Of a stretch of DNA of 47,714 bases, positions 11,241 to 32,855 are shown in pieces. Source of the DNA: an uncultured bacterium (GTDB lineage Bacteria > Elusimicrobiota > Elusimicrobia > Elusimicrobiales > Elusimicrobiaceae); the NCBI GenBank assembly GCA_949297775.1, contig CASFTM010000010.1, positions 1 to 47,714 on the forward strand. The letters are read 5' to 3'. A program made the position numbers and the translations under genes. Below the pieces are notes generated by a model. It saw nothing but the letters and a program-made list of their open reading frames with translations, did not search any database and was not told where the DNA came from. Position 1 is the first letter of the stretch. Each line of letters opens with the position of its first letter.

Positions 11241-11267
11241 CCAGGGTCCCACAAAAATCACTCATTC

Positions 11268-14610: not shown

Positions 14611-15261
14611 ATGAATAAAACCGTTTTGCTGTTTCTGTTGGGCGCGGTGATTGCGCCCTTTTTAACGGCTTGTTCCAGTGCGCCCGCCCGGGTGCAGAAC
14701 GGGCCCGATGCTTCCGTATCGCAGGAAGTGGTACAAAGCTTGGCACAGGTGCGCGCCCCCAACGCTTACCATTTGCAGCCCGGCGATTTATTGGAAATCC
14801 AAGTGTTTATGGAAGACGATATGCAACGCACCCTGCGCGTAAGTGGCGGGGGGAGCGTGACGTTCCCGCTCGTGGGCAACGTGCCTGTAGCCGGCTATAC
14901 GGTGGCGGAAGCCGAAGAACAGCTGGCAAATGCGCTGAAAACTTATTTGAAAAATCCCCAAGTATCTATTTTAATCAAAGAATACGGCAACAAAACGGTT
15001 TATGTGCTGGGGCAGGTGTCCAAGCCGGCGGCTATCCAAATCCCGCCTGAGAAAGAACTGACCGTGCTGGAAGCCATTACTTCCGTGGGCGGGTTTACCG
15101 ACGTGGCCGCCACTTCCAAGGTGCGCGTTTTGCGTATGGACGGCGGACGCCAAAAAACAATTGACGTGGACGTAACCCAAATCACCAAACAGGGCAACAA
15201 AGCGATGGATATCCCGCTGATGCCCGGCGACGTGGTATTCGTGCCGCAGAGTATGTTCTAA
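14611..15261 (+). CDS. polysaccharide export lipoprotein, short OPX (Wza-like)
   Basis: 216-residue OPX-family export protein. The signal peptide ends in a lipobox, L18-T19-A20-C21, with Ser at +2, predicting outer-membrane sorting. Next come the polysaccharide export (PES) domain (YHLQPGDLLEIQVFMEDD... about 50-130) and one SLBB domain (TVYVLGQVSKPAAIQIP... to GDVVFVP). The protein stops there: unlike E. coli Wza it lacks a second SLBB and the C-terminal amphipathic helix that spans the outer membrane. Short OPX proteins of this sort are known in other bacteria to work with a separate beta-barrel; see the gene at 30,980. The BY-kinase follows 9 nt later. An in-frame TTG at 14,593 is a poorer start. 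Confidence 0.92.
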   Translation: MNKTVLLFLLGAVIAPFLTACSSAPARVQNGPDASVSQEVVQSLAQVRAPNAYHLQPGDLLEIQVFMEDDMQRTLRVSGGGSVTFPLVGNVPVAGYTVAEAEEQLANALKTYLKNPQVSILIKEYGNKTVYVLGQVSKPAAIQIPPEKELTVLEAITSVGGFTDVAATSKVRVLRMDGGRQKTIDVDVTQITKQGNKAMDIPLMPGDVVFVPQSMF

Positions 15262-15270
15262 GGGAAAATT

Positions 15271-16995
15271 ATGGAAAATATCAATAACGTAACAAACGAA
15301 GAATTGGATTTCAGCTATTATCTAAATATCATCTTCAAACGCTTTTGGCTGATTGTGGGAATGGTGGCCGTCGGGTTGGTGGCGGCGGTGCTGGTGAATA
15401 TCTTTATGCGCCCGGCCTACAAAGCCACGGTGCTGATGATGATCAACCAAGAGGACGCCGGAAAAATAGACGCTACGCCCTACGGTTCCTTTACCAGCGA
15501 AGAAGATTACTACCGCACCCAATACCAGCTGCTCACCAGCCGCTCGCTGTTGGAAAAAGTCTACCACAATATGGACCTGGGCCAATACGAACAATTCGCT
15601 AACCCGTCCGGCTTGAAAAAATTGGAAAAAGCCCTGTCTGTAGAGCCCATTACGCGCAGCCGCTTGGTCAATGTGTCCGCTACGACTTACGACCCGAAGC
15701 TGTCGGCGGAAATTGCCAACAAACTGGCTAATACATTTGTGGCTGAAAATATCAGCAACCGTATTTTTATGGGGCAGGATGTTATCGCCGCGTTGGAAAA
15801 TACCGAACGCAGTCCGGAAGAACAGGAACTGCTAAACTCTATGCCGCAGGTGGTCAACAGCGATTTTATCAAAACCCTTAAACAGCAGGCCGCCCAGTTG
15901 GCGGGGCAGGAAGCGCAGCTTTCGGCCAAATATACCTCAAAGCACCCGGAATTAATGTCGGTGCACAACCAGCTGGAAGCCATCAACCAGCAGATTAATA
16001 CCGAAACCCGTCGTTTGGTGCAGAGTATTAAAATTGAACTCTCGGGGCAGTTTTCCGGCAACAATATCCGCGTGGTGGATCCTGCCGTAACGCCCGAAAA
16101 ACCCGTCCGTCCGCGCAAATTGCTTAACCTGGCGATTGGGTTGTTAGCCGGCGGATTATTGGGGCTGATGATCGTGTTTGTATTGGAATTTTTGGACCAG
16201 AGCGTAAAGTCTTCCGAAGATTTGGAAGAAAAACTTGGCCTGCCGTTCTTGGGGTTTGTTCCGTACGAAAAGAAAGGCAAAAAGAAAGAAGCCGAATACG
16301 CCACAATGCTTAAAGAAGGCAACTTCTTAATGGCTGAAAATGTTCGCAATGTGCGTACGATGCTGGATTTTGCGCTGTCGGACAATCACAACGCGCCGAT
16401 TTTGATTTCCAGCTCCTTGCAGGGGGAAGGCAAGAGCCACTTGTCCTCCAACTTGCTGGTGGCGATGGCGCAAGCCGGCAAAAAAGTACTGCTGGTGGAC
16501 GGCGATTTGCGCCGCGCCCGCGTGCATAAAGTGTTCCGTCTGTCTACTGAAAAGGGTTTAAGCAACATTTGGGATGCGGACCCGCAAAAAGCCGATTATG
16601 CTTATAATGTACAGTCGGTAAAAGACGTGCCGAACCTGTTTGTGATGACGGCCGGACAGCGTCCGCCGAATCCGGCTGAACTGTTAAATACGCCCAAATT
16701 GGCTGATTTTATTGCGTGGGCTACCAAGAATTACGACCAGGTGGTCATTGACTGCCCCGCCATTCTGCCGGTTTCCGACACGCTGTTGTGGGGAAAATAC
16801 ATCCCGCGTTCCGTGTTTGTGATTAAATACGGCAAAACCAACGCCAAACTAGCCAAAATTGCGCTTGATAAGCTGCAAAAGGCCGGTATTAAGGTGTTGG
16901 GGGCGGTGATAGGCCATTACAAGCCTGAGGGCCTTTCCTACGGCAAATACGGCTATTACAAGAGCTACAGCTATTACAGCGAAGATAAGAAATAA
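15271..16995 (+). CDS. polysaccharide co-polymerase/BY-family tyrosine kinase (Wzc-like)
   Basis: 574-residue inner-membrane protein that controls chain length and couples to OPX export. Layout: Wzz domain with first membrane helix (about 27-47), periplasmic helical region with a GNVR-like end (RVVDPAVTPEKPVRPRK), second helix (about 287-307), then a cytoplasmic kinase with Walker A SSLQGEGKSH (about 381-390), Walker A' LLVDGDLRR, Walker B VVIDCPA, and a C-terminal tail with seven Tyr in the last ~20 residues (SYGKYGYYKSYSYYSEDKK). Autophosphorylation of the tail would set oligomer state, reversed by the phosphatase at 12,456. It follows the OPX gene by 9 nt; a terminator lies downstream. Confidence 0.94.
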   Translation: MENINNVTNEELDFSYYLNIIFKRFWLIVGMVAVGLVAAVLVNIFMRPAYKATVLMMINQEDAGKIDATPYGSFTSEEDYYRTQYQLLTSRSLLEKVYHNMDLGQYEQFANPSGLKKLEKALSVEPITRSRLVNVSATTYDPKLSAEIANKLANTFVAENISNRIFMGQDVIAALENTERSPEEQELLNSMPQVVNSDFIKTLKQQAAQLAGQEAQLSAKYTSKHPELMSVHNQLEAINQQINTETRRLVQSIKIELSGQFSGNNIRVVDPAVTPEKPVRPRKLLNLAIGLLAGGLLGLMIVFVLEFLDQSVKSSEDLEEKLGLPFLGFVPYEKKGKKKEAEYATMLKEGNFLMAENVRNVRTMLDFALSDNHNAPILISSSLQGEGKSHLSSNLLVAMAQAGKKVLLVDGDLRRARVHKVFRLSTEKGLSNIWDADPQKADYAYNVQSVKDVPNLFVMTAGQRPPNPAELLNTPKLADFIAWATKNYDQVVIDCPAILPVSDTLLWGKYIPRSVFVIKYGKTNAKLAKIALDKLQKAGIKVLGAVIGHYKPEGLSYGKYGYYKSYSYYSEDKK

Positions 16996-17019
16996 TAGAC
17001 GTTGTTTATTTGAAGGAAT

Positions 17020-17050
17020 AAAAATCCCGGAGTGAATGCTCCGGGTTTTT
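17020..17050. terminator. bidirectional terminator
   Basis: CCCGGAG (17026-17032) pairs with CTCCGGG (17039-17045), flanked by A5 and T5. It ends both the BY-kinase transcript and the 10-kb minus-strand operon. Confidence 0.85.
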
Positions 17051-17086
17051 AATGGACAGAAAGGCACTGGTGCCCGATAGAAAACA

Positions 17087-18301
17087 CTAACGCAAGTGTA
17101 ATTTACGGGCTATTTTGCGCCATAGCATTTGCATTATCCGAATGGGAAAAGGCTTTTCCCCAAGTAAAGCGGGCACCAGCTTATTAAGCGGTTCCGTTTG
17201 GTATCGTGCAAAAAATTCCGCCCGCTTGGGGTGTGGTTTGGTGCTGAATAGCAAGGGAGAATTAAAGCTGGTTACTTTTTCCATTGATATGGGTACATAG
17301 TGTATGGAATTAATCTTTTGTAAGAAAGAAGCTCCTTTGTCTGAAGAAATAATTAAAACAGATATACCCCATTTTTTGTCTTGTTTTGATTCTATATGGG
17401 CGGGCCATTTGCCCCACAAATCACCCAATGTAAAATCTGACCAATGCTTCCCTTTTTTAAAGTGACAACTGTGGCAGGATGGCCGGTTGATGAGCTCTTT
17501 CAAAAAGGCTTTTAAAAAGATATTGTAATGTACAAAAGGTGTTAAGCGGGCAAACAGCGGAGAAAAAAATACTAGTTCTGTCCACGGTTTCTTATCCCCG
17601 TGAATGCGGTGACCTTTGTTGGTGGTAAATCCTAAATGAAAATTATACCAGCTGAAAAATTTATCCCTAAAATTAATATCTTGAATATGAGTACGTTTGA
17701 AATTTTCTGTCAAAAATTGTTTCCATACGGCAGGGGATGGTACCGCATGGCAAATGATATCCACCGTTAATAAATTTTCGTAGTCTTTTCCTAAATAATT
17801 TTTCAGTCCGACTATTTGACATGGGGTGCCGGTAAAGAGCACCTGGCGGCCTTTGTCTAAGAACTGTTTGGCCTGTTGGAAAGTCTTTCCAATATCGCTT
17901 TGTACGTATTTGGATCGGCGGAGTTTATCCAAATCTTCTAGCGTTTCGGCGGATTGGTGGCAGACGTTCCAATCTTTATCAAATCCCGCGCCAAACACGA
18001 CCCCTTTTGTTTCTAATATAGCTGCTGCTAGGGCGCTAAAAACCCCGCCAGATGAACTGTTAAGGCGTACTTCCCGGGATTGATGCTTCGCCGCATAAGC
18101 AGCAGATTTTTCATATGCGGCGGGGGGATGTAAAACTGGGCAGACTTTTTCGCATAAACCACAGTTGACGCATAAGGTTTGATCCGCTTTTGGGTACCAA
18201 AAACCTTCCTCATCGGATTGCATCGTGATGCAGCCTTTGGGACAGATGTTCACACACGCGTTACATCCGCAGCATTGGGATTTATTTAGTATTTGCAGCA
18301 T
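17087..18301 (-). CDS. FrhB/F420-dehydrogenase beta-subunit-like iron-sulfur protein
   Basis: 404 residues. Two bacterial ferredoxin motifs at the N-terminus, C10-x2-C13-x2-C16-x3-C20-P and C44-x2-C47-x2-C50-x3-C54-P, would bind two [4Fe-4S] clusters. Then come the FrhB N- and C-domains (SSGGVFSALAAAILE, LFTGTPCQIVGLKNYLGKDY, DIICHAVPSP, and a Cys pair CHSCHF). Homologues in exopolysaccharide clusters commonly sit near WcaK-type pyruvyltransferases, as here; their substrate is not established and no F420 enzymes are visible, so the F420 name should not be taken literally. It is the last gene of the minus-strand operon. Confidence 0.85.
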   Translation of the reverse strand: MLQILNKSQCCGCNACVNICPKGCITMQSDEEGFWYPKADQTLCVNCGLCEKVCPVLHPPAAYEKSAAYAAKHQSREVRLNSSSGGVFSALAAAILETKGVVFGAGFDKDWNVCHQSAETLEDLDKLRRSKYVQSDIGKTFQQAKQFLDKGRQVLFTGTPCQIVGLKNYLGKDYENLLTVDIICHAVPSPAVWKQFLTENFKRTHIQDINFRDKFFSWYNFHLGFTTNKGHRIHGDKKPWTELVFFSPLFARLTPFVHYNIFLKAFLKELINRPSCHSCHFKKGKHWSDFTLGDLWGKWPAHIESKQDKKWGISVLIISSDKGASFLQKINSIHYVPISMEKVTSFNSPLLFSTKPHPKRAEFFARYQTEPLNKLVPALLGEKPFPIRIMQMLWRKIARKLHLR

Positions 18302-18308
18302 TTTTAGT

Positions 18309-19199
18309 TTATTTAGAATATAATTTTTTTATTAAATTATAATTAATATGGAAAAATTTTAAACATTTTTTTACATAGACTTTTAGTTTTTGCTTGCAAT
18401 ACTTGCGCTTAACCACTCCCTGCCAGAATAATTTTTCCTGTTGAGGGATATCCATTCGGTTTAAGGTTTTTTGTAGCAGATCTTTTACTCTTCTGTAAAA
18501 ATTTATTTCGTCAATTCCGTGGCTGGCAGAATGTCGGCGAATAACATATTTCCCGGACTTGTCATTTAAATATCCGCAGGGATAAGCATAAGACAGCGGA
18601 AGCAACATTTGGTAATTTTCTCCCGCTTCATTATGTGGCATAAAACGCGTAGGGTTAACTTTGTCAAAACATTCTGTGCGGGCAAAAGTTCCTATCGAGG
18701 TAAAAAAGACGTTTTTTTCTAAAATTAAATCCTGAAAAAGCGTATCGGGGCCGGTCGGTGGAGTTCTTTTTAATAAACCCACAATTGTATTTAAATCATC
18801 TTCATATACTTGGTCTACTTCCGCATAACATAAGCCGTAAGCTGGATTTTGTTCCATAAAAGCTACTCTCTTTTTAATGGAGTCCGGATATAAAATATCA
18901 TCGGCGTTAGGCCAAGTAAAATATTTACCGCTAATATATTTTAACCCGACATCCATTCCACCGGTCACACCCTCATTTTTGTCCACATGTATATAAATAA
19001 ACTTAGCCAGCTTGGATTCAAGTTTTTGCCTGTAAGAGGCAATCATTTCATCCATAGAGTCGGTAGACCCATTGTTAACTAAAATATACTCTATGGGTTC
19101 GTATGTTTGCGCTAAGACGGATTCCAAATGCGGCTTGAGCCAGGGCGTTCCGTTATAACAAATGGTAAGAATGCTTACGAGCGGTTTATCGTTTAACAT
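18309..19199 (-). CDS. family 2 glycosyltransferase
   Basis: 296 residues, GT-A fold: N-terminal VSILTICYNGTPWLKPHLESV, nucleotide-binding acidic residues, NNGSTDSMDE, and a DxD-equivalent NADDILYPDS (about 97-106). The C-terminal ~50 residues are Lys-rich and hydrophobic, suggesting membrane association. It would transfer an activated sugar to the growing lipid-linked repeat unit; the sugar is not predictable. It overlaps the flippase gene by 14 nt, so translation is probably coupled. Confidence 0.9.
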   Translation of the reverse strand: MLNDKPLVSILTICYNGTPWLKPHLESVLAQTYEPIEYILVNNGSTDSMDEMIASYRQKLESKLAKFIYIHVDKNEGVTGGMDVGLKYISGKYFTWPNADDILYPDSIKKRVAFMEQNPAYGLCYAEVDQVYEDDLNTIVGLLKRTPPTGPDTLFQDLILEKNVFFTSIGTFARTECFDKVNPTRFMPHNEAGENYQMLLPLSYAYPCGYLNDKSGKYVIRRHSASHGIDEINFYRRVKDLLQKTLNRMDIPQQEKLFWQGVVKRKYCKQKLKVYVKKCLKFFHINYNLIKKLYSK

Positions 19200-20712
19200 A
19201 TTTTATTCCTTTTTGTAAAAAATTTTGAACGGGAGCTGCGATCAAATCTCTTTCATATTTATTAAATATAAATTTCCAACATATAAAAACAAAACTCAAA
19301 CAGAAAAGAACAATATGACATAAAAGAACTGTATTTGTTTTTGCAGGATAAAGAAGTTTTAGGAGGAGTCCAACAGCTAATGAAAAGAACAAAAATGGAA
19401 GTATACGCCCTATATTGTTGAAGTATTCTTTGACATCAATACCCGTTTTTGCATAATATATATCAGCAGCGAATAACTGCCCTAATAATAAACAACAGGT
19501 CGTAGCGATTGCACATCCTAATACACCCCACATTTTACATAAGGGAATAGAGATTAAAAGATTGAAAATTCCCGTAATGGTATATATATAGGCATAGGGG
19601 GCATATTTGTTTTTTGCCTGAAGAATTAAAACAGCAATATTTTGGCTGGATACGAACAAATATCCTGCCATCAGGACAAGAGTACAGGAATATGAAGGAA
19701 GAAAGTCCGTTCCAATCCAAAGGGAAAGAAAGGGTTTTCCATATAAAATAAATCCTATAAAAATAAGCCCTAAAAATATAAATTGCAGACGAGAAATTTT
19801 AATAAAAATTTTGTTCATTTCCGTCATATCTTCTGTTTGGGAGGCAATTGCTGACAGTTTGGGTAGAAAAACATTAAAAATCGCACCGGAAAAATTTCTA
19901 TACATCATTAAAATTTGTACTGATACGGAATAAATAGCTACGGCCGCTGTACCAATGAGTGCTCCTAAAATGAGTTGTCCTGTTTTAAGATAAATGATTT
20001 CTACAACCATCACAAGAAAAATAAAAAAAGAATAAGATAATAGTTCTTTGACAAAATTCCCATTCCATTGATGCAGTTTAAATTTTACTTTTAATTTTGT
20101 AAAAGAGAACCAAGATGTTAAAGCAATAACAAGTAGGCTGCATATGGTATGTCCGATTGCCACGGTTAATACATTGGGAAAACGAGATAACAACAAGAGA
20201 ATAACTAATGGCTGAAGAATGATGTTAATAAGGGAAAGCGTTTTGGTAAAAATAAACTTTTCGTGCGAATTGACAATGGCCGTAAAAATATTGGATGGGA
20301 AACTAATGGCTAAATTGAATAATAAAATAAAAAAGAGATATTTAGCTGTTGTTATTTCCTGGGCAGACAAGGTGCGAGTATATAATGGCAGGAAGAAAAA
20401 CAGCAAGATAATACCTACTATAAAAACCAAAGCGGCTAAGACCCCGTACAGAATAGCACAGGTTGCCAATAAATTTTCTTGTGCAGATTTGTCATTTTGG
20501 GCCAAGTATCGGGAATAGTAGCGTGTGGTTGTATTGGCCATTCCAAAATCCATAGTGGATAAATAGCCAATCGCGGCTCCGACCAGCTGATAGAGGCCGA
20601 ATTCTTCTTTTGTTAGAAACCACAAAAGCATGGGAATATAAATAATTCCCACGATGCTATTGATTCCAAGAGATAAATAAGAAAGAATGGCTCCCGCTTT
20701 GCGTTGATTCAT
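19186..20712 (-). CDS. polysaccharide flippase (Wzx/MOP superfamily)
   Basis: 508-residue inner-membrane protein with about 12-14 helices. It opens with the family-typical GAILSYLSLGINSIVGIIYIP and LLWFLTKEEFGLYQLVGA, which is characteristic of RfbX/Wzx-like flippases. It would flip the undecaprenyl-pyrophosphate-linked repeat unit to the periplasmic face for the EpsG-type polymerase. Base composition is notably AT-rich, like its neighbours. It lies 4 nt after the pyruvyltransferase gene and overlaps the next glycosyltransferase gene. Confidence 0.92.
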   Translation of the reverse strand: MNQRKAGAILSYLSLGINSIVGIIYIPMLLWFLTKEEFGLYQLVGAAIGYLSTMDFGMANTTTRYYSRYLAQNDKSAQENLLATCAILYGVLAALVFIVGIILLFFFLPLYTRTLSAQEITTAKYLFFILLFNLAISFPSNIFTAIVNSHEKFIFTKTLSLINIILQPLVILLLLSRFPNVLTVAIGHTICSLLVIALTSWFSFTKLKVKFKLHQWNGNFVKELLSYSFFIFLVMVVEIIYLKTGQLILGALIGTAAVAIYSVSVQILMMYRNFSGAIFNVFLPKLSAIASQTEDMTEMNKIFIKISRLQFIFLGLIFIGFILYGKPFLSLWIGTDFLPSYSCTLVLMAGYLFVSSQNIAVLILQAKNKYAPYAYIYTITGIFNLLISIPLCKMWGVLGCAIATTCCLLLGQLFAADIYYAKTGIDVKEYFNNIGRILPFLFFSLAVGLLLKLLYPAKTNTVLLCHIVLFCLSFVFICWKFIFNKYERDLIAAPVQNFLQKGIKYVKR

Positions 20713-20716
20713 ACTA

Positions 20717-21925
20717 TTATAATAACTTTTTTACTTCTTCCCCTGCTTGATAGGTTTTGGCAATGTAACCGGGCATAAACTCTTTGTAATGGGTTCGAAT
20801 TTGATCCTCCTTCTGCATTAAATTGATAAATGCATTGGTAAGATCGTCTTTATGTTGCAGGCCTTGCACAGGAACAACATATCCTTCTTCTGTGCCAAAA
20901 ATATCGCGTGCAATGCCTTTGGCTTTAACAGAATAGCCAATCACTAAGGTAGGCACTTGTGTAGAATAGGCGGCAATAGAAGCATGGGTGCGCGCCGCCA
21001 CCATAAAGCGGCATTGGGATATGATTCCTTTTAGCTCCATCGCATTATAGAGTTTGTTTATTAGGCACACCCGCCCGGTGTCTTTAAATTCATTATACAG
21101 ATGGGTTAGCGGCTCTAAATCGTTGTTATTTTCCCAAATAACATGCGGGATAAGAGCAATGTTCATTTGTGTATTTTGTAGAATGTAGCGCACTAGTGTT
21201 TCAAAATTTTTAAATGCAATGTTGCCGCCTTGTTCTAACCGTTGTACCAGAGGGCTTAAATTCAGGCCTACGGTGTTACCGGGAAGAAAATTGCTTGGTA
21301 AATCGGTTGGCAGAACTTTATCCATAACAAAAGCCGGGTCGGGAAATAGGTGGGTGTTTTTGTTAATGCCGTTTTGAATTAAGGCATTATAGGTTAGTGA
21401 TTCCCTGGCTGTAATGAGGGAATAGCGGTTTAAATCTTCACGTAATGTCTTGTCATTCTTAATATCTTTTGGTTCAATAGAACAGCCCCAAAGGATGGTT
21501 TTGATGCCCTCTTGCTGAAGAAAGGCATTAGAAGCTGCTAATTCCGAAAAATCATCGTAGCAATAATTATCCCCTCCTATGGATAAGGCAAGTTGAGGCT
21601 TTTCTTGACGAATTGTATTATATTTATCTTCATAATTGACAGTTTTTCTTTTTCTTGAGCGAAGGGCTTGGATCCGTCTAATGATAGACAAAGGTAAAAT
21701 TTTTTTGAGGAGCGATTTTATCAGACCTTTTGCATGTTTATCTTCTGGTCCTAATTGGATAATGGGGCAGATTTTGTCCAATTTAAAATAGGTGTCTTCG
21801 GATATAGAAAAAGTAAACAGCTCGCAGGTGGCAAAAGTGTGCAAAATCTTGATTGAACTTCTAGCAATGGCCTCACAGCCATGGTTTTTGCTGCCCCCAT
21901 GAAAGAAAAATATTATTTTTTTCAT
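20717..21925 (-). CDS. polysaccharide pyruvyltransferase family protein (WcaK/CsaB-like)
   Basis: 402 residues. The N-terminal GGSKNHGCEAI and KIIFFFHGGS match the start of the PF04230 family, with a central SIGGDNYCYDD, the conserved HLFPDPAFV, and C-terminal ARTHASIAAYSTQVPTLVIGYSVKAKGIARD, where the His and the GYSxKxxGI motif are hallmarks. The family ketalises sugars with pyruvate from PEP, giving acidic polymers, although many members remain uncharacterised. It is coupled to the flippase gene (4 nt). A short AT-rich gap (21,926-22,017) without visible genes separates it from the upstream GT4. Confidence 0.88.
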   Translation of the reverse strand: MKKIIFFFHGGSKNHGCEAIARSSIKILHTFATCELFTFSISEDTYFKLDKICPIIQLGPEDKHAKGLIKSLLKKILPLSIIRRIQALRSRKRKTVNYEDKYNTIRQEKPQLALSIGGDNYCYDDFSELAASNAFLQQEGIKTILWGCSIEPKDIKNDKTLREDLNRYSLITARESLTYNALIQNGINKNTHLFPDPAFVMDKVLPTDLPSNFLPGNTVGLNLSPLVQRLEQGGNIAFKNFETLVRYILQNTQMNIALIPHVIWENNNDLEPLTHLYNEFKDTGRVCLINKLYNAMELKGIISQCRFMVAARTHASIAAYSTQVPTLVIGYSVKAKGIARDIFGTEEGYVVPVQGLQHKDDLTNAFINLMQKEDQIRTHYKEFMPGYIAKTYQAGEEVKKLL

Positions 21926-22017
21926 ACATTTTCCTCTTTAATGTATAGTTTTTTATAGCAAATGGATAAATGAAAAAGATAACAATTAGGCTCTGTAATT
22001 TAGCATATAAAATGTAG

Positions 22018-23139: not shown

Positions 23140-23194
23140 AAAACTTTCCTATGTTTTTTGTTTGGAATAGGGGAATAGTATGAAATTTTCACTC

Positions 23195-24184: not shown

Positions 24185-24215
24185 GTATTTTTGTTTTGGC
24201 TTAAAATGCAAACTC

Positions 24216-25292
24216 CTAAAAACAAAAAGAAAAGGGCAAAATGTGATTCCAATCCGGTCGATATATAAAAATAACGCATGCATAAAGGACGAAACAGAAT
24301 ATTAATCCGCTACCTATAAGGATTCTGAAAGGTTTTGAATATGTACCCACAAATAAAGGTATCGATAGCAGATTAAAAATGGAAAAATATATTACCAATC
24401 TTTCTAATACAGTCCCGCGAATAGAAATAAACTGTATACAAACAGCTGCTACGCTGCACCATAATAAAAATGAAATGGGAAGAATAGTCCTTATAGAAGA
24501 ATTTTTACAGTACTTATATGAAAAAATACAAAAACAAGTAATTGCTCCCTGTATAAGTGTTTTGACTATGGAGGCTATTTTAGTATCTTCCCCCAATAGA
24601 ATAGTTCCTTGATAGTCATTGTAGCGGCCTGTTAATGCAATAATTTGTTCAATAATTGGAGTTAAGAAGAGAAGTGTCAAAATAGTAATAAAAATAACCC
24701 CTAGTAAATACTGAATTTTGAAAGGGATACAGTATAGAAAGTATAAGCTGATAGCCAATAAGGCGGAGATATGGAAAGACGAGGCAATAACGCAACATAA
24801 ACAAAAAGGAAGAAACTGCCGTTTGATGACAAAAGGGAGTGCTAGCAATACAACTGATAACGCCAAATACTGGCGCATAATATTCATAGTATCACCAAAG
24901 TAAAGAATGACAAAAAGAAGGATGGATAATAGTATGCCCGAACTGTATTTCCGGATAAAAAAGCAAATAGAACCAATGATTATAATAGCGCTAATGAGTA
25001 AAAATACTTGTGGAGAATGGGTAAAAAAAGCTATTGATTGATTGTACAAAAGATAGCCTTTTTCCATATGGGATTTAATCAGTTCTGGAAAATTTATAGA
25101 TAGAATAAAAGTATAAATATAGTTGATTGTATCATTCCCTATATTCCAAGCTCGAAACCCTGCAATAAATGAGAGCTCGGCAAATACAAGGAACAAAAAA
25201 ATATTTTTTCCTTTTTTTGTTTTTAATGGGAAAAATATTCCTTGAATAAACATTAGTCCGAGCAACAAAAAGAATTGCCAAAGGTATTGCAT
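24216..25292 (-). CDS. EpsG-family polysaccharide polymerase (Wzy-type)
   Basis: 358 residues with about 9-10 hydrophobic helices. EpsG-family landmarks: GFRAWNIGNDTINYIYTF after the first helix, MNIMRQYLALSVVLLA with the conserved Met-Arg-Gln, and SSFHISALLAI with the conserved His. It would polymerise flipped repeat units in the periplasm. Together with the flippase and BY-kinase it completes a Wzx/Wzy pathway. It lies 2 nt after the upstream GT4 and is strongly AT-rich. Confidence 0.88.
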   Translation of the reverse strand: MQYLWQFFLLLGLMFIQGIFFPLKTKKGKNIFLFLVFAELSFIAGFRAWNIGNDTINYIYTFILSINFPELIKSHMEKGYLLYNQSIAFFTHSPQVFLLISAIIIIGSICFFIRKYSSGILLSILLFVILYFGDTMNIMRQYLALSVVLLALPFVIKRQFLPFCLCCVIASSFHISALLAISLYFLYCIPFKIQYLLGVIFITILTLLFLTPIIEQIIALTGRYNDYQGTILLGEDTKIASIVKTLIQGAITCFCIFSYKYCKNSSIRTILPISFLLWCSVAAVCIQFISIRGTVLERLVIYFSIFNLLSIPLFVGTYSKPFRILIGSGLIFCFVLYACVIFIYRPDWNHILPFSFCF

Positions 25293-25294
25293 AT

Positions 25295-26389
25295 TTATTT
25301 ATCTACTTCCTCATAAAAAGTTTCTAAATTCCGTGTAGTTTTTCGTATATCAAAAGACATTAGTTTTCCTGCTGGTTTGCGGGAAGGATTAGTGAATTGC
25401 AACGCTTTTTCTGCCCATGTGGCTGGCGATTCTTTTAAACTTATCCTTTGGGCACAGCCTAATAATATTTCTTCGGTGATACCATCTGAACACAAACAAG
25501 GAAGCCCGGCTGCTTGAGCTTCAACGCCTACTACGGGCAGTCCTTCAAATAACGAAGGTAGCAAAAATATATCCATAGCCTGAAGCAGTTCTGGAATATC
25601 GTTCCTTAATCCTAAAAACAATACAACATTTCCTAGGTTTTTTTGGCGAACATATTCCTGCACGGCGCTTAGGCGAATTCCTTCTCCTACTAATAGAAGG
25701 ATGGCATCTTGACGTTGTCGGTAGATTTTTTCAAAGATATCTATCAAAAAAAAATGATTTTTTTGTGCTTCAAATCGACCGATATGTCCGACGATAAATT
25801 TGTTTTGTAAATGGAGATCTGCACGTTTTCGTTCCCTGGTTTGTAGATTGAAATGGAATCGCTCTAAATCAATGCCATTATTAATTACCTTATAATTTTG
25901 ACCATAATACGCTTTTCCCGCCTGATTGGAACAGGCTAATTTATAATCAATGAGAGTCCATACCGCATGCAAGAGCAAACAATTGCGCAAGGCACTTAAT
26001 TTTTTATCACTCCATGTGGTTAGATGAGCATGTTGAATTATAGTTTCCGAGCCGTAGAATTTGGCAATTGGATAGTAGAAAGCTCCTAGAGCGGTTACAT
26101 GCGAATGAATGATTCGATAGGAATGACGTTTAAAGAAAGCAGCAATAGATTGGAAAAATAGGATGGGGTGAAAAAGCCCTTTATAGGTTACATAATATAT
26201 ATGGCCTCCCAATGCGTGTATTTCTTCTTCAAAACTGTCATCTTTGGAGCGGTGAAAACAAACTAAATAGTCAAATTGTATTTTTGTGCGGTCAATGTGT
26301 CGATGCCAATTGAGAATAACATTGGCCACGCCGCTTCCTCGGCCGATATCCATAACTATTTGTAAGATTCGTATGGGCTTTTTAGTCAT
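25295..26389 (-). CDS. family 4 glycosyltransferase
   Basis: 364 residues, GT-B fold. ILQIVMDIGRGSGVANVILN (acceptor loop), HSHVTALGAFYYPIAK, VINNGIDLERFHFN, GHIGRFEAQKNH and E-x7-E in EGLPVVGVEAQAAGLPCLCSD. It resembles the GT4 at 22,018. It lies 2 nt after the upstream GT2 and 2 nt before the polymerase gene, so it is co-transcribed and probably translationally coupled. Confidence 0.92.
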   Translation of the reverse strand: MTKKPIRILQIVMDIGRGSGVANVILNWHRHIDRTKIQFDYLVCFHRSKDDSFEEEIHALGGHIYYVTYKGLFHPILFFQSIAAFFKRHSYRIIHSHVTALGAFYYPIAKFYGSETIIQHAHLTTWSDKKLSALRNCLLLHAVWTLIDYKLACSNQAGKAYYGQNYKVINNGIDLERFHFNLQTRERKRADLHLQNKFIVGHIGRFEAQKNHFFLIDIFEKIYRQRQDAILLLVGEGIRLSAVQEYVRQKNLGNVVLFLGLRNDIPELLQAMDIFLLPSLFEGLPVVGVEAQAAGLPCLCSDGITEEILLGCAQRISLKESPATWAEKALQFTNPSRKPAGKLMSFDIRKTTRNLETFYEEVDK

Positions 26390-26391
26390 AG

Positions 26392-27219
26392 TTATCTTAA
26401 CGCTTTCTTATACAACATTTTTCTTATAGAATTGGGCATCAATACCTGTACGCAAAAGCGTACGCATATATTAAAAACATAAGTTCCCCAGTCAATTATT
26501 CCCAGCTGACGTAGTTTCCCTGACAGGGAGACGTTGCTCTTAAAATACTTCCAGCCGCCGCGCCGGCCGTACATTGCCGCGTTTACGCGGGCCCGCAATA
26601 TAATATCTGCTAAATTACCAAAAATATATCCTTTGGCCGCACAGCGCGCCCACAAATAGTAATCTTCCAGTAAGTGAAAGGGTTGATAGCTGCCAGCCTG
26701 CAAAATAAGGCTTTTTTTGAACATAACTGTCATATGGTTAAAGGGGCATCGCATTTTTAGGAATTTTTTACATTCCGCGTCCGTGCCCGGCACACGCCGT
26801 ATGGCAACCGGCTGCAAGCTTTCCGCGTCTATTTCTTCAATAGTGCCGCCTAAAATGGCTAAATCCGGCTCCTGGATAAAGCGGGTAAGCTGTTTTTCAA
26901 AGCGGTTCGGCAAAGATATGTCATCCGCGTCCATACGCGCTACTAATTCATATGAACATTGTTCCAATCCTTTTTGCAAGGCCATTCCTAGTCCGCTATT
27001 TTTTTCTAAGGGAATCAGTTTGATTGAGGGGTGCTTTTTAGCGTATTCCTCCAACACCTTATGCAATTCTTCCGGCACGGGGCCGTCCACCGCCACCGCT
27101 ACTTCTGCCGGGCGTACGGTGTTAGCCAAAACGCTGTCCAACGCCTGGGCCACCCACACGGGGTTATCCTTGGCGTATACGGACATCAATACGGAAAAAG
27201 GCGGAAATTCTTGGTTCAT
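26392..27219 (-). CDS. family 2 glycosyltransferase (AmsE/WcaA-like)
   Basis: 275 residues, GT-A fold. FSVLMSVYAKDNPVWVAQALD, VDGPVPEELHKVLEEYA, NSGLGMALQKGLEQCSYELVA and RMDADDISLPNRFEKQ (DxD) place it with the AmsE-type transferases of exopolysaccharide loci. It is the first gene of the minus-strand operon, with a TTGGAT/TATAAT promoter. Its composition is closer to the chromosomal average than that of the next eight genes, so the AT-rich cassette begins just after it. Confidence 0.9.
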   Translation of the reverse strand: MNQEFPPFSVLMSVYAKDNPVWVAQALDSVLANTVRPAEVAVAVDGPVPEELHKVLEEYAKKHPSIKLIPLEKNSGLGMALQKGLEQCSYELVARMDADDISLPNRFEKQLTRFIQEPDLAILGGTIEEIDAESLQPVAIRRVPGTDAECKKFLKMRCPFNHMTVMFKKSLILQAGSYQPFHLLEDYYLWARCAAKGYIFGNLADIILRARVNAAMYGRRGGWKYFKSNVSLSGKLRQLGIIDWGTYVFNICVRFCVQVLMPNSIRKMLYKKALR

Positions 27220-27241
27220 ACCCTAATATTAATCTTTTTAA

Positions 27242-27270
27242 ATTATACTATTTTCGCCTTTTTTATCCAA
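27242..27270 (-). promoter_or_regulatory. promoter of the minus-strand exopolysaccharide operon
   Basis: On the minus strand, TTGGAT (27270-27265), 17-nt spacer, TATAAT (27247-27242), 22 nt before the ATG at 27,219. Confidence 0.7.
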
Positions 27271-27292
27271 TGAAAGATTTAAAAAATTTTCC

Positions 27293-27321
27293 TTGTTGGA
27301 AGGCTCCCAAAACGGTATAAT
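27293..27321 (+). promoter_or_regulatory. promoter of the plus-strand exopolysaccharide genes
   Basis: TTGTTG (27293-27298), 17-nt spacer, TATAAT (27316-27321). The leader is about 38 nt with no Shine-Dalgarno. It is divergent from the operon promoter 22 bp away, so both halves could share control. Confidence 0.68.
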
Positions 27322-27364
27322 AACAATTAATAATTTATTTACATTATTCCATCATTTTCTAAAT

Positions 27365-28306
27365 ATGACAACAGAACAATTTACCTGGGTAATTACCGGC
27401 GGAGCCGGGTTTATAGGCTCTCATTTAGCTAAAGAACTGGTTCGCAGCGGTCAGCGTGTGCGGGTGTTTGATAATTTTTCGGGCGGTTTTCGCTCCAATT
27501 TGTCTGACATTGTAGACAAAATAGACATTATTGAAGGGGATATCCGCGATTGGCGCGCCGTACAACAGGCGTTTGCCGGGGCGGATTATGTGCTGCACCA
27601 CGCGGCGTTGGTGTCGGTGGCGGAGTCGGTGGACAAACCGTTGCTCACCGAGGAAATCAACGTCCGCGGGACGGGCAATGTGCTGGAAGCGGCCCGCCGG
27701 CAAGGCGTTCGTCGGTTGGTGTTTGCTTCTTCGAGTGCGGTATACGGCAACCGACCTGATTTGCCTTACCGGGAAGATACGCCGGAAGATTGCCAATCCC
27801 CCTATGCATGGTCCAAACAAGCGGGGGCACGTCTGTGTAACCTTTACACGGCAAATTATAAATTGGAAACGGTTGTTTTGCGTTATTTTAATGTGTTTGG
27901 CACGGGGCAGAACCCTAATTCCGCCTATGCGGCGGTGATTGCCAAATTCATGCAGTTAGCCGAGCAGAATCATCCGCTGGGAATTGACTGGGATGGGCAG
28001 CAAAGCCGCGATTTTGTAAACGTGCGCGATGTAGTGCAGGCCAACCTGTTGGCGGCTTTAAAGGCGCAACCGGGGGAAACATACAATGTAGCCAGCGGGA
28101 AGACGACTTCGCTTTTGGAGCTGGCGGATCTAATTGAAGAGATTTCCGGGCGCAAGCTGGGGCGCGTATTCCGGCCCAAGCGTCCGGGTGATGTTAAATT
28201 ATCGTCTGCGGATATTTCTAAAATACAAGCATTGGGGTTTGTGCCGCGCATTTCGCTTAAAGAAGGGTTGCAAGAAATGTGGCGCGAAAAAATGAGGTCT
28301 AAATGA
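27365..28306 (+). CDS. NAD-dependent UDP-sugar 4-epimerase (GalE/WbpP-like)
   Basis: 313-residue cytoplasmic SDR-family epimerase. NAD-binding G-x2-G-x2-G in TGGAGFIGSH, SSSAVYGN, catalytic Y-x3-K in SPYAWSKQA, and RYFNVFGTGQNPNSAYAAV, close to the WbpP/Gne (UDP-GlcNAc/GalNAc) subgroup. It would supply galacto- or galactosamine-type precursors. The ATG at 27,365 starts exactly at the Rossmann fold; the frame extends upstream without protein character. The stop overlaps the next gene by 4 nt (ATGA). Confidence 0.9.
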   Translation: MTTEQFTWVITGGAGFIGSHLAKELVRSGQRVRVFDNFSGGFRSNLSDIVDKIDIIEGDIRDWRAVQQAFAGADYVLHHAALVSVAESVDKPLLTEEINVRGTGNVLEAARRQGVRRLVFASSSAVYGNRPDLPYREDTPEDCQSPYAWSKQAGARLCNLYTANYKLETVVLRYFNVFGTGQNPNSAYAAVIAKFMQLAEQNHPLGIDWDGQQSRDFVNVRDVVQANLLAALKAQPGETYNVASGKTTSLLELADLIEEISGRKLGRVFRPKRPGDVKLSSADISKIQALGFVPRISLKEGLQEMWREKMRSK

Positions 28307-29634
28307 AGTCAAAGGCGTGGTTTGTATTGGTTGATTTGTTGGCCTTTTTCGCTATTTTGTTTGCCGTAATTGTGTTGCGGACGGGGCGTATAGAGGTATC
28401 CCATTATTTACACAACATAGAAGTATTCCTGCCGATTTTTGTATTGTGTGTATTTTTTCTGTGGATTTTTTCTTTTTATGATGTCCAATCGCTGCGCAAA
28501 CGGGCCGTACACTATAAAATGCTGGCGGTGGCGTTTGTATTGAGCGTATTATCGTCGGCGGCGGTAATTTATTTTATTACGCCTATTTACGCAATAGCTA
28601 CGCCCAAAACCATACTGGTAGCAGTGCTTTTCTTGTTTTTCTGTTACATCTATTGGCAGCGCAAAACCTATTTTAAATTGGACTTTGCCAAAACCAACCT
28701 GCTGCTATTTGGGGAAAGTTCAACGATGACTGAAATTTTACAGGAAGTCACTCATTCTTCCGGGTTTAAGTTGCGCGCGCATGACCCAGAGCCGCTGGCG
28801 GATAAAAATTATTCTTTGCGCAATTTAGATCAAGTGATTGTCAGCAGTCGGTTGTTGGATGCAAGTTCGTCTGCTTGGGAACGGATTTCGCGTGATTTTA
28901 TTGGTAAAGGTGCGTGTGTAGATTCGGACTTTAACGCGTTTGAACGGATTTTCCGCCGCGTATCGCGTGAGAGTATTTCTAATGGTGTTTGGCTGTTGTT
29001 GGGGGTGGGGAATCGCCGGGGCAGTGCCAGCTATGCGATGCTCAAAAGAACAATGGATCTTGTTTTGTCGTGTGTAATGCTTCCTGTTTTGGCTCCTTTA
29101 GGTTTGTTTATTTTCCTTTGCATCCGTTTAATAGATAAATATCCGCCCTTTTTTGTGCAAAAAAGGGTCGGATTTTTAGAAAAACCTATCTACATCTATA
29201 AATTTCGTACTATTAAACCGGGCGGTACGGAAGCGGATATTACCCGCAGTGGGAAAATTTTGCGTCGGTTTCGCCTGGACGAAATTCCACAAATTATCAA
29301 TGTGCTAAAGGGGGAAATTTCGTTTGTGGGGCCGCGGCCGATTTGGAGTAACGAATACGAATTTTTAAAAAAATATATTCCCAACCACAATTTACGTACG
29401 ATTGTAAAGCCAGGCATTACAGGCTGGGCGCAGCTGAATTTTAAAGCGCCGCCGACGTATTTTAATTTCCGTAACGACCAGCCGGACAAAATAGAAAATA
29501 ATGCGTTTGATGCGGCGTTTACGCGGTTTTCCTACGATGTGTGGTACATCAAAAACCGCTCGTTGTGGCTGGATATAGAAATTATGATTAAAACGGGCAT
29601 CCGCGCGTTTATTAAGGATTCATATGTGGGCTAA
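28303..29634 (+). CDS. initiating undecaprenyl-phosphate sugar phosphotransferase (WcaJ/WbaP type)
   Basis: 443 residues. Four N-terminal membrane helices (to about residue 125), a short Rossmann-like middle domain, then the bacterial sugar transferase domain: membrane re-entrant helix MLKRTMDLVLSCVMLPVLA, FVQKRVGFLEKPIYIYKFRT, LRRFRLDEIPQIINVLKGE with the catalytic Asp-Glu, SFVGPRPIW and KPGITGWAQLNF. It transfers the first sugar-1-phosphate to undecaprenyl phosphate and so starts each repeat unit. Overlaps at both ends (4 nt and 11 nt) indicate a coupled three-gene operon. Confidence 0.93.
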   Translation: MKSKAWFVLVDLLAFFAILFAVIVLRTGRIEVSHYLHNIEVFLPIFVLCVFFLWIFSFYDVQSLRKRAVHYKMLAVAFVLSVLSSAAVIYFITPIYAIATPKTILVAVLFLFFCYIYWQRKTYFKLDFAKTNLLLFGESSTMTEILQEVTHSSGFKLRAHDPEPLADKNYSLRNLDQVIVSSRLLDASSSAWERISRDFIGKGACVDSDFNAFERIFRRVSRESISNGVWLLLGVGNRRGSASYAMLKRTMDLVLSCVMLPVLAPLGLFIFLCIRLIDKYPPFFVQKRVGFLEKPIYIYKFRTIKPGGTEADITRSGKILRRFRLDEIPQIINVLKGEISFVGPRPIWSNEYEFLKKYIPNHNLRTIVKPGITGWAQLNFKAPPTYFNFRNDQPDKIENNAFDAAFTRFSYDVWYIKNRSLWLDIEIMIKTGIRAFIKDSYVG

Positions 29635-30649
29635 AACAGCTTTTTTAACACTTTTATGGGCTTGTTCATCCGTGGCGTACGCGGGAGAATTTCCAGTTTG
29701 TATGTACGGGGTAAATGACCCGCAAGACGTGCCGACGCTAAAAAAGGCGGGGTTTAGCTGTTTTCAAACGTACCGCCGCGAGCCGGAGCTGTTAAACCAG
29801 CTGGCCGAAGCCGCGCAGAAAGAAGGGATGAAGACGCTTTTTTATCCGTGGAAAATGTTGGATGAAAATAAATTTGTCCAAGAAGCGCAGAACTGGCCGG
29901 TGCTGGCGTGGTACCTGGTGGATGAGCCGGATGTGGCGCGCTGGAGCCGCGAGCGTGTAGCCAAGAGCCATACGCGTTCCAAAGAGGCCTTCCCTAATCA
30001 TCCGACGGCGATAGTCGTCGGGCAGGGTAAAACGGCGGTGCCGTTTTACGATTTATCCGATGTATTTATGGTGGATTGGTACCCCGTACCGCACTTGCCG
30101 CTTACGTCGCTGGGGGACCAAGTAGCCCTGGCACGGGCGGAAATCCAAAAAACGGACCGCCCGGATAAACCGTTGTGGGCGGTGGTACAATTGTTTGATT
30201 GGAAAGAATACAAACAATATCGCCCGGATAATGACCGCATTGGGCGGTTCCCTACGCAGGAAGAACTGCGGTTTATGTCGTATGACTCGATTATGAACGG
30301 AGCAACGGGGCTTTTTTATTTTATTTTTACGACCAACGGCAACCCGCTTCCGTCCGCCCAGCCGGAATACTGGGCGCGTATCGTGCCTGTTACGCAGGAA
30401 ATTTCTTCTTTCCGCCCGGTGCTGGAGGGGGGAAAAGTGGTCAAAAACCCCGTATCGGCGGCTAAAGCCGGCGCGTTGGAACTTAAAACGTGGAAATATG
30501 CCGGGGATAAATATACGCTTGTGTTAAACCCGACGGACTCCGCCCAGCCGGTGCCGGAGAAACTTCTTAAAAAGAAATATGCGCCGATGTTCGGCGTAGC
30601 AAAAACGACGCAAATCCCCGCTTACGGCGTATGGATATTGCAGTATTAA
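29624..30649 (+). CDS. secreted TIM-barrel glycosidase-like protein
   Basis: 341 residues with a signal peptide (cleavage about AYA|GE, residue 20). The pattern suggests a single (beta/alpha)8 barrel: start GVNDPQDVPTLKKAGFSCFQTY, then LAWYLVDEPDVARW (about 97-110) with an acid at the end of a strand as in many clan GH-A enzymes, VFMVDWYPVPHLP, LWAVVQLFDW and GATGLFYFIF, followed by a small beta-domain. I cannot assign a GH family. The 11-nt overlap with the initiating transferase ties it to polymer synthesis: trimming, release or quality control are all possible. A terminator follows. The assignment is by pattern only. Confidence 0.6.
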   Translation: MWAKTAFLTLLWACSSVAYAGEFPVCMYGVNDPQDVPTLKKAGFSCFQTYRREPELLNQLAEAAQKEGMKTLFYPWKMLDENKFVQEAQNWPVLAWYLVDEPDVARWSRERVAKSHTRSKEAFPNHPTAIVVGQGKTAVPFYDLSDVFMVDWYPVPHLPLTSLGDQVALARAEIQKTDRPDKPLWAVVQLFDWKEYKQYRPDNDRIGRFPTQEELRFMSYDSIMNGATGLFYFIFTTNGNPLPSAQPEYWARIVPVTQEISSFRPVLEGGKVVKNPVSAAKAGALELKTWKYAGDKYTLVLNPTDSAQPVPEKLLKKKYAPMFGVAKTTQIPAYGVWILQY

Positions 30650-30668
30650 CCTTACTCGTTTGATTTGG

Positions 30669-30698
30669 AAATAAAAGCCGCCTTCGGGGGGCTTTTTT
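30669..30698 (+). terminator. rho-independent terminator
   Basis: AAGCC-GCC paired across a TTCG tetraloop with GG-GGCTT (one G-G mismatch), followed by T6. Confidence 0.8.
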
Positions 30699-30712
30699 AT
30701 GCCTTTTTATGG

Positions 30713-30834
30713 CGGGTAGATGTGTGTTAATGGGATCTTCCGTGCCAGCAGGTCCGCACGGGCTGTTGAGGAAATGTCTCCAGGGAGCCCAGAAATCTGC
30801 CCGATAGCAGTGGAACGGCCGCGCGGGGCTTTTT
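30713..30834 (+). ncRNA. possible small structured RNA with terminator (weak)
   Basis: Between the terminators of two convergent genes lies a gene-free stretch. CGGGTAGA (30713-30720) pairs with TCTGCCCG (30796-30803, one G-U), enclosing CCGTGC/GCACGG (30740-30745/30756-30761) or, alternatively, GGGCT/AGCCC. It ends in a G/C-rich segment with GGGGCTTTTT (30826-30834), whose GGGC could also compete for the GCCC of the closing stem. No promoter or known RNA signature was recognised. The rest, 30,835-30,935, shows nothing further. Confidence 0.3.
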
Positions 30835-30935
30835 GTATGGGCGTTGCCCGCGGAATAAGAGTTTTTCCCGCCGGTGGCTTTTGGCTGCCAGTGGGTGTTT
30901 GCGCCTGGCACTCGGGGCGCATAGTTCAGCAGGAC

Positions 30936-30963
30936 ATAAAAAACCCCGCCCGAAGGCGGGGTT
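30936..30963 (-). terminator. terminator for the beta-barrel operon
   Basis: AACCCCGCC and GGCGGGGTT around a 4-nt loop, with the T run on the minus strand, 17 nt past the stop at 30,980. Confidence 0.9.
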
Positions 30964-30979
30964 AATCAGGCAATTTTGA

Positions 30980-32107
30980 TTAGAACAACGCTTTGGCGTA
31001 GATACCCGCTTGGTTGCGGTTATAGTCAAAGGGGTTCGTGTTGGACTGGCGGGTGCGGAACTGATACCACACACCGGCAGACAGCCAATCTTTGAACTGA
31101 TAATCCAGCGCGGGGCGGATGGTGTACAGGTCGTCGTTTCTCTTGGTGTTGCCCACATAGCGGTCATACGCCATATTTTCCCAACCCAAGGTCAACGAAG
31201 CGGTCCATTTGTCAAAGATTTTCTGGGAGCCGTACAGCGACACCAGCGTATCGGCGAAGAAGCGGTTGGAACCATACATAGATTCCTGCATGCTGCGTTC
31301 ACCGGACAAGCGGATAGTGTTGCGGTCGGTCGGCTGCCATTCCAAGGCTACATAATAACCAAAGAGGTCATTGTAGTTGTTGACGCCGTCTACGTCATTG
31401 TCGTAGTCGCGCATGGCATAGGTTACTTTGGCAATACCGTTCACTTTCGCGGCGATGTCGCCTTCCACACCCAAACCAACGGTGCTGCCAATAGAGTTGT
31501 TGGCTTTGTTGGTTTCATACGCAATGTCGGAATACATATATTCGGCAAAGAAGCTGGTTTTGGGGGAAACATTGTAGAACAGTTTAGCACCCAAATTGAC
31601 GCGGTTGCGGTTCAACGCATCGCCGTATTCCGCTTGGAAATAGCGGTCGAAAGAATCATCCGCAAACAAGCCGAAGCCAAACATTTTTTCCGTAGAGGTT
31701 TTGAAGCTGATATACCCCGTGTTGTTCATGCGTTCGGCACGTTCCGTGAGTTCGCTGTTGGCCGGATCGGAGGTATACAGGAAGTTGTCCCCGATGTTGA
31801 ACATATCGTTTTTCAAGTCCACATTGGCGAAGGCATTCCAGAAGTTATTTTTGGAGCTGTCTTCGGTATAGGCGTTGTAGCCTACCAAGCCGGTGGCCGA
31901 AAGTTCCAAGCCGGAACCGGGCACATTGGCTTTGTAGTTGGCGCCCACCTGGGTAGAGCTGATAAATGAATCTTTGGTGTTTTCGTCGGTCAGATAGATG
32001 TTGTCATCGTAGCTGACGTCTTCAGACACCATAAATTTAAGCGGCGTCTGGGCGGCAGCAGGCCACGCCATGAGCACAGTTAAAAATACGATTGCGATCT
32101 TTTTCAT
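30980..32107 (-). CDS. outer-membrane beta-barrel protein of the exopolysaccharide locus
   Basis: 375 residues. Signal peptide cleaved near AAA|QT (about residue 20). The mature 355 residues show alternating amphipathic strands with Asn/Asp/Gly turns throughout (VSEDVSYDDNIYLTDEN; FFAEYMYSDIAYETN; ASLTLGWENMAYDRY) and end in Phe (AGIYAKALF), a beta-barrel assembly signal. It resembles the putative porin family (BBP2_2) found in exopolysaccharide loci. Size fits 16-18 strands. A TAGGAGA ribosome site precedes the ATG; it is downstream of, and co-transcribed with, the secreted protein at 32,130. Candidate outer-membrane conduit for the short OPX protein at 14,611. Confidence 0.82.
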   Translation of the reverse strand: MKKIAIVFLTVLMAWPAAAQTPLKFMVSEDVSYDDNIYLTDENTKDSFISSTQVGANYKANVPGSGLELSATGLVGYNAYTEDSSKNNFWNAFANVDLKNDMFNIGDNFLYTSDPANSELTERAERMNNTGYISFKTSTEKMFGFGLFADDSFDRYFQAEYGDALNRNRVNLGAKLFYNVSPKTSFFAEYMYSDIAYETNKANNSIGSTVGLGVEGDIAAKVNGIAKVTYAMRDYDNDVDGVNNYNDLFGYYVALEWQPTDRNTIRLSGERSMQESMYGSNRFFADTLVSLYGSQKIFDKWTASLTLGWENMAYDRYVGNTKRNDDLYTIRPALDYQFKDWLSAGVWYQFRTRQSNTNPFDYNRNQAGIYAKALF

Positions 32108-32836: not shown

Positions 32837-32855
32837 CTTGCAGGGAGGAAAAGTT

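Follow-up and report, generated by a model that had tools for sequence, protein, structure and literature searches.

Organization of the proposed export locus

The window analysed here, the whole 47,714-nucleotide stretch of contig CASFTM010000010.1 (assembly GCA_949297775.1), belongs to the genome assembly of an uncultured Elusimicrobiaceae bacterium (Elusimicrobiota), which comprises 1.69 Mb in 32 contigs and is 96.94% complete. It carries a polysaccharide locus encoding a short outer-membrane polysaccharide export (OPX) lipoprotein, a separate outer-membrane beta-barrel and a small secreted protein with a conserved C-terminal tail, which we propose to be parts of one exporter:

14611-15261, plus strand: short lipoprotein OPX of the D1D2 type, putative subunit of a periplasmic ring (Pfam; lipobox LTAC)
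30980-32107, minus strand: beta-barrel protein of the outer membrane, BBP2_2 / EpsL-like and with 18 predicted strands, proposed to be the pore (PF10082; AlphaFold)
32130-32675, minus strand: small secreted tail protein, P0003, with a signal peptide, a beta domain (residues 22-134), a disordered linker (140-175) and a C-terminal motif (sequence; AlphaFold)
32130-32153, minus strand: conserved tail L-S-P-S-A-P-R-stop of P0003 (motif conservation)

The OPX and barrel genes were compared across 37 genomes of the genus and 198 genomes of Elusimicrobiota, and relatives of the tail protein were searched in 61 genomes. These relatives are genomes or metagenome-assembled genomes (MAGs), many of them fragmented, and because they are related to one another the Fisher p values obtained from them are too strong. 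The signal peptide of the barrel was judged by eye and the OPX lipobox from its sequence.

A short OPX protein and a barrel predicted to be unplugged

The OPX protein has 216 residues, in which Poly_export (PF02563, 2.4e-23) is followed by a single SLBB domain (PF22461, 9.5e-11, residues 128-211; PF10531). It ends five residues past this domain, with the sequence VPQSMF, and so lacks the amphipathic, outer-membrane-spanning C-terminal helix that defines the Wza-type (Class 1) proteins; the Pfam matches and this C-terminus bear out an earlier note on this DNA, which had described an OPX that stops after one SLBB domain. Its closest sequences in the PDB are 9n9a (7.7e-36) and Wza, and its best NCBIfam match, TIGR03027 (the OPX of XrtA/PEP-CTERM systems), scores 128.6 bits, below the cut-off of 180. 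A second, full-length OPX elsewhere in the genome would have spoken against a split exporter, and a PF02563 search of the genome, at the completeness given above, returned this one protein and no other.

The barrel gene is open in the minus frame, while translation of the plus strand is interrupted by internal stops; its product carries a signal peptide, ends in Phe and has one copy in the genome. The earlier note had the coordinates, the signal peptide and the terminal Phe right; to these we add the minus-strand orientation of the gene and the 15.7 kb that separate it from OPX. The protein matches BBP2_2 (PF10082, 2e-13) with 50.4 bits, above the curated cut-off of 23.7, and among NCBIfam families it is best matched by EpsL (TIGR03014), with 50.7 bits against a cut-off of 275. 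At an E value of 1, no relative was found among PDB sequences, nor did tblastn find a match to the window barrel among plasmids.

An AlphaFold model of the barrel alone, built from 37 aligned sequences, has 18 strands and a pLDDT of 89.9, with low confidence in the signal peptide only. Since the model shows neither an N-terminal plug domain nor a long inserted segment, and its loops do not exceed about 13 residues, a plugged barrel, which the earlier note had named as evidence against an exporter, was set aside. Compared with solved structures, the model is most similar to the alginate exporter AlgE (Z 20.0, root-mean-square deviation (rmsd) 5.1 over 324 residues). A lumen charge of +5, roughly estimated from strand alternation, was not relied on, as several strands were ambiguous.

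The barrel accompanies short OPX proteins

Within the genus, Poly_export was found in 17 of the 37 genomes and the barrel in 18, namely the same 17 and G013, which has no OPX match and whose barrel is truncated at a contig end. The barrel is thus present in 17/17 genomes with OPX and absent from 19/20 without. In a TypA tree that includes 32 of the 37 genomes, the OPX label changes nine times, at least seven of them on well-supported branches; in independent pairs taken from this tree, the barrel went with OPX in six, against it in none and showed no difference in one (p 0.03).

Across the phylum, Poly_export was found in 110 genomes and BBP2_2 in 68. When the 136 OPX proteins were classed by the number of residues from the start of Poly_export to the protein end, 73 were short (162-170 residues) and 63 long (at least 187), with nothing intermediate. 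Most of the long ones have a hydrophobic terminal helix; some are long multi-domain proteins, two others are truncated because their contig stops, and in a few the terminus is not hydrophobic. A lipobox pattern is present in 61/73 short and 5/63 long proteins. The barrel lies on the contig of 48 of the 73 short OPX proteins and of none of the 63 long ones; counted by genome, a BBP2_2 barrel is found in 64/69 with a short OPX versus 2/41 with long OPX only. In 14 genomes that have both kinds, the barrel lies on the contig of the short copy in nine and of the long copy in none. The co-occurrence that the earlier note had suggested as a check is therefore strong at both levels. Two further genomes of the phylum, G140 and G176, have a barrel and no OPX match at all, and in two proteobacterial MAGs the barrel, an OPX of 180 residues and a polysaccharide co-polymerase (PCP) are encoded in tandem.

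A probable secreted partner with an exchangeable body and a constant tail

The gene for P0003 lies on the same strand as the barrel gene, 22 bases upstream of it. In the AlphaFold model the beta domain is predicted with a pLDDT of about 95, and the tail is disordered. Relatives of P0003 were found in 16 of the 61 genomes searched, every one of which bears a barrel and belongs to the genus. In G006 and G017, the two barrel-bearing genomes of the genus with no P0003 relative, that place is taken by a protein of the linker type that bears this tail, and across barrel loci the bodies of the upstream proteins vary (a beta domain, FecR, an Ala/Lys/Gln-rich linker, a Pro- or Gly-rich linker), with the extreme C-terminus remaining constant.

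To count the tail, we used the motif S-x-S-x-P within the last 14 residues, which was picked post hoc from the first tails read. Of 74 barrel matches in the phylum, three had no usable locus and 11 no secreted-looking open reading frame (ORF) upstream (four of these at contig edges), leaving 60, and the motif is present in 48 of them. In 47 of these 48 tails the motif is preceded by L, V, I or M, in 38 the residue after its first S is P, and zero to four residues lie beyond the motif, which gives the consensus hydrophobic-S-P-S-[AST]-P. Away from barrels, in the loci retrieved, the motif gave 16 matches, three of which were judged by eye to be tail proteins; with these three and the 54 barrel-adjacent ORFs removed, it occurs in 13 of about 3,163 other secreted-looking ORFs (about 0.4%). 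In a scan of named genomes with a looser pattern, the tail was present in 33 of 42 barrel loci. A diverged tail, ending LSNPEP, was seen in G024, and in G036, G008 and G016 the tail protein sits away from the barrel.

Three additional arrangements were observed. In G036 (L380), two tail proteins are encoded in tandem, away from the barrel. In G041, a second tail protein, ending EVSGSTP, lies between Wzy_C and OPX (L130:8931-9743, plus strand). In G115, where no barrel was found, a tail protein is encoded near the short OPX (L297:3790-4395, minus strand), which suggests that the organism does have a barrel gene and that only the assembly lacks it.

Outside Elusimicrobiota, we considered the phylum of MAG G213, for which matches in 89 genomes gave 30 barrel loci. 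With a looser pattern, likewise picked post hoc (SPS within the last eight residues), the upstream ORF carries the tail in 7/30 loci versus 0/129 background ORFs; two of the seven read exactly ISPSAP, and the strict motif occurs in two of the 30 (L365 and L376). The tail is absent from the nine loci of this phylum in which OPX lies directly upstream of the barrel and, as described below, from plasmid loci; the tail protein is therefore common in Elusimicrobiota and not universal.

A likeness of the P0003 body to the beta-jellyroll of LptA/OstA is no more than suggestive: LptA is the best structural match, at Z 6.0 and with an rmsd of 3.3 over 96 residues, none of the matches attained Z 8, and Foldseek gave E values of 0.16-0.25 for LptA chains. 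FecR (PF04773) does not match P0003 and is absent among the 25 listed of the 47 Pfam families matched by its 28-member family, whereas the positional counterpart in G069 matches FecR at 1.3e-14. A Pfam name for the 28-member family was sought and rejected, as the matches were scattered and weak. In literature searches covering the export of polysaccharides in Elusimicrobiota, BBP2/EpsL, a tail of the SPSAP type and the combination of OPX and FecR, no description of the tail protein was found among the papers listed. The earlier note had considered it a possible third part, an idea that gains support from relatives confined to barrel-bearing genomes and from a tail that is kept where the body is replaced; we consider it likely that the protein is a third, perhaps undescribed, working part of the translocon.

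Glycan genes and neighbouring features

The remaining features of the locus are:

12931-14565, plus strand: membrane protein of the conserved core, assigned to Wzy_C (O-antigen ligase family) and a candidate ligase (PF04932, 2.8e-16; 5' of OPX in relatives)
15271-16995, plus strand: PCP with a fused tyrosine autokinase, PCP-BYK (PF02706 Wzz, 2.1e-12; PF13807 GNVR; AAA/CbiA; Tyr-rich C-terminus; 3' of OPX in relatives)
17087-27219, minus strand: glycan module including glycosyltransferases (Pfam)
19186-20712, minus strand: Wzx flippase, within the glycan module (Pfam)
20717-21925, minus strand: pyruvyl transferase, within the glycan module (Pfam)
24216-25292, minus strand: EpsG polymerase, within the variable glycan module (PF14897, 1.9e-49)
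from 27293 (block 27293-30649), plus strand: NAD epimerase (PF01370, 8e-61)
28303-29634, plus strand: initiating sugar-phosphate transferase (PF02397, 1e-47)
29624-30649, plus strand: secreted protein of 341 residues, family-less (no match in Pfam or NCBIfam; PDB sequence match not convincing)

In several relatives the gap between OPX and barrel is 2-3 kb and the barrel adjoins the Wzy_C-OPX-PCP genes; the two genes are close in L124, L126, L160 and L163, and likewise in L182/L183. The epimerase, the sugar-phosphate transferase and the 29624-30649 protein are found again beside the barrel in many relatives, and the last is possibly a periplasmic glycan-processing enzyme. The locus has two Wzy-like membrane proteins, the conserved Wzy_C by OPX and EpsG in the variable module.

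Directly beside the tail protein, positions 32838-40615 (plus strand) encode a large secreted protein (1889 residues, alpha-2-macroglobulin-like) and then a penicillin-binding-protein-like gene, both named by eye. At 10961-11385 (plus strand), overlapping ORFs are internally repetitive in at least two frames, and this is probably a repeat-rich non-coding stretch.

Comparison with known systems

PelC, whose arrangement with PelB is compared below, is to our knowledge not an OPX. The likenesses described here draw on parts of the papers cited. For Myxococcus, a 2022 model of EpsY/EpsX places an 18-stranded barrel on top of a ring of D1D2-OPX lipoproteins (PMC9601211), and Saidi et al. 2022 described Class 3 OPX proteins with Wzp barrels (PMC9603273). 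The precedent invoked by the earlier note agrees with this composite translocon: there too, in the portions drawn on, an OPX lipoprotein of about 217 residues consists of D1 and D2 only, the barrel has 18 strands and is AlgE-like, the locus is of the Wzx/Wzy type with a PCP, and helix-less OPX with a barrel contrasts with helix-bearing OPX without one (PMC9601211, PMC9603273). The present system differs in that its barrel belongs to BBP2_2/EpsL and not to the MXAN_7418/3226/1916 family, which according to Saidi et al. is found in myxobacteria only (PMC9603273), in that a glycan module separates the barrel gene from OPX, and in that the gene ahead of the barrel encodes a secreted partner with a tail. 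The main texts of PMC9601211 and PMC9603273, supplements aside, do not name Elusimicrobiota; it could still be one of the ten phyla in PMC9601211.

Among NCBIfam families, the best likeness is to EpsL (TIGR03014), TIGR03016 and the OPX TIGR03027 of exosortase/PEP-CTERM loci, with the matches to TIGR03014 and TIGR03027 both below their cut-offs (50.7/275 and 128.6/180 bits). In the promonan genes prmB-prmC-prmD of Sphingomonas, a small ORF (64 residues there) is likewise followed by an outer-membrane barrel and then OPX, and deleting the barrel or the OPX abolishes the polysaccharide (PMC11340318, in the part cited). PelB/PelC of Pseudomonas, as presented in part of PMC12141448, resemble the proposed machine in having a periplasmic lipoprotein ring mounted on an outer-membrane beta-barrel. 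In the GfcA/GfcD and YjbE/YjbH systems, the small Ser/Thr-rich secreted or membrane protein GfcA is encoded with a large barrel and the OPX GfcE; unlike the OPX studied here, GfcE is a full-length Wza paralog (PMC8592465, in the sections drawn on).

A proposed composite translocon and its alternatives

We propose that a single polysaccharide of the Wzx/Wzy type is both synthesized and exported by the products of this locus. Repeat units would be assembled on a lipid carrier, starting with the sugar-phosphate transferase at 28303, flipped by Wzx (19186) and polymerised by EpsG (24216) under the control of the PCP-kinase (15271). The short OPX lipoprotein would assemble into a ring in the periplasm that reaches no further than the membrane, and the 18-stranded barrel would provide the outer-membrane pore in place of the missing OPX helix. 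With the barrel pore standing in for that helix, OPX and barrel would constitute a composite polysaccharide translocon, which sequence comparison and the structural model make very probable. The earlier note had taken the two to be the terminal exporter, and the co-occurrence supports it. Gene content, domain architecture, a predicted barrel fold, co-occurrence and conservation of the tail are established here; physical contact, ring formation, export activity and the role of the tail are inferred. That the exporter is split is well supported by the sequences compared, in which it appears to behave as the known composite translocon does. The tail protein would be the third component, with the conserved C-terminal tail as its working part: as a linear motif on a flexible arm, the tail may bind the periplasmic side of the barrel or of the ring, and the exchangeable, flexible body may tether, gate or space the machine. 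We only tentatively prefer such docking to a role as glycan acceptor.

Several observations weigh against a three-part exporter of this kind. In the window, 15.7 kb and about 13 genes separate OPX from the barrel gene, which lies on the opposite strand. OprD/Occ porins follow AlgE closely among the structural matches of the barrel (Z about 17.5-19, one to two Z units lower), and therefore the fold alone leaves the substrate unfixed and does not imply a polysaccharide. A barrel was not detected in five genomes with a short OPX (G115, G129, G186, G194 and G205), and BBP2_2 matches occur in two genomes with long OPX only (G165, below the cut-off, and G198). As for the tail, 12 of the 60 secreted ORFs upstream of barrels are without S-x-S-x-P, and six plasmid OPX loci (of 301 matching records) have no such tail. 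In Sphingomonas, the part of PMC11340318 cited reports the small ORF before the export barrel as dispensable for exopolysaccharide, which would point to an accessory role of the tail protein, if that ORF is its counterpart.

The explanation that best survives beside docking takes the tail protein as the glycan acceptor, and as such competes with the docking role and not with the translocon. The Wzy_C ligase would join the polymer to the tail serine, and the folded or membrane-anchored body would hold the polymer as it leaves through the barrel, giving a protein-anchored capsule. Oligosaccharyltransferases belonging to the Wzy_C superfamily act on Ser residues located in Ala/Pro-rich or C-terminal sites. 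Since a separate EpsG polymerase is encoded in the variable module of the window, the conserved Wzy_C beside OPX may be a ligase with the Ser-Pro tail as its target; among ten membrane proteins scanned from the loci of nine relatives, nine were EpsG and one was a further Wzy_C. That a disordered linker carries the tail, that the tail is rich in Ser and Pro at the extreme C-terminus, and that bodies vary (FecR, beta domain, linker only) also fits an acceptor, and part of PMC8592465 sets out a similar idea for the Ser/Thr-rich GfcA and its barrel GfcD. Against this, the Wzy_C protein could itself be the polymerase, and Pfam and family scans of the locus proteins gave no PglL-type match. On balance we consider an acceptor possible but unlikely. 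The wider proposal that composite exporters in at least two phyla share a third, hitherto unnamed component with an exchangeable body and a fixed C-terminal tail, in which the tail is the Wzy_C ligase site, the body a periplasmic stopper and the barrel-threaded polymer a protein-anchored capsule, is more doubtful still.

The barrel could instead be an ordinary porin or another outer-membrane protein that lies in a polysaccharide locus by chance, with the partner of OPX elsewhere; the near-equal match to general porins and the distance and opposite strand in the window are compatible with this. However, within the genus the barrel follows the presence and absence of OPX, it goes only with OPX proteins that end after SLBB, and beyond the phylum, too, barrel and OPX are paired in tandem, which makes chance neighbourhood very unlikely. 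A further reading is that the entire locus comes and goes as a single island and that this alone produces the co-occurrence, a pairing without mechanistic meaning, as many of its genes travel together and at least seven gains or losses are seen in the genus. An island effect alone would not predict which kind of OPX the barrel joins, and therefore the pattern in the 14 genomes with both kinds, where no contig with the long OPX includes the barrel, counts against this explanation, to which we give little credence. Finally, the tail is most improbably a general sorting or cell-surface signal: a short conserved C-terminal motif on exchangeable bodies does resemble sorting tags, but it occurs in only about 0.4% of secreted-looking ORFs away from barrels, no hydrophobic or basic stretch follows it, and of the two matches to the narrow pattern in the bacterium's own genome only that of P0003 stands before a true stop codon.

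Significance

How a polymer leaves past an OPX without the helix is a question opened only in 2022. The pairing of helix-less OPX with a barrel spans the whole phylum and has a within-genome control, and it is therefore a predictive rule. New here is the tailed partner, which makes the exporter a variant of the known composite translocon; it offers a small, easily mutated handle that could decide whether these machines include a gate, rely on a docking factor or anchor the polymer to a protein. The host, a gut-type bacterium, appears to move a sugar polymer through its outer membrane by a split machine.

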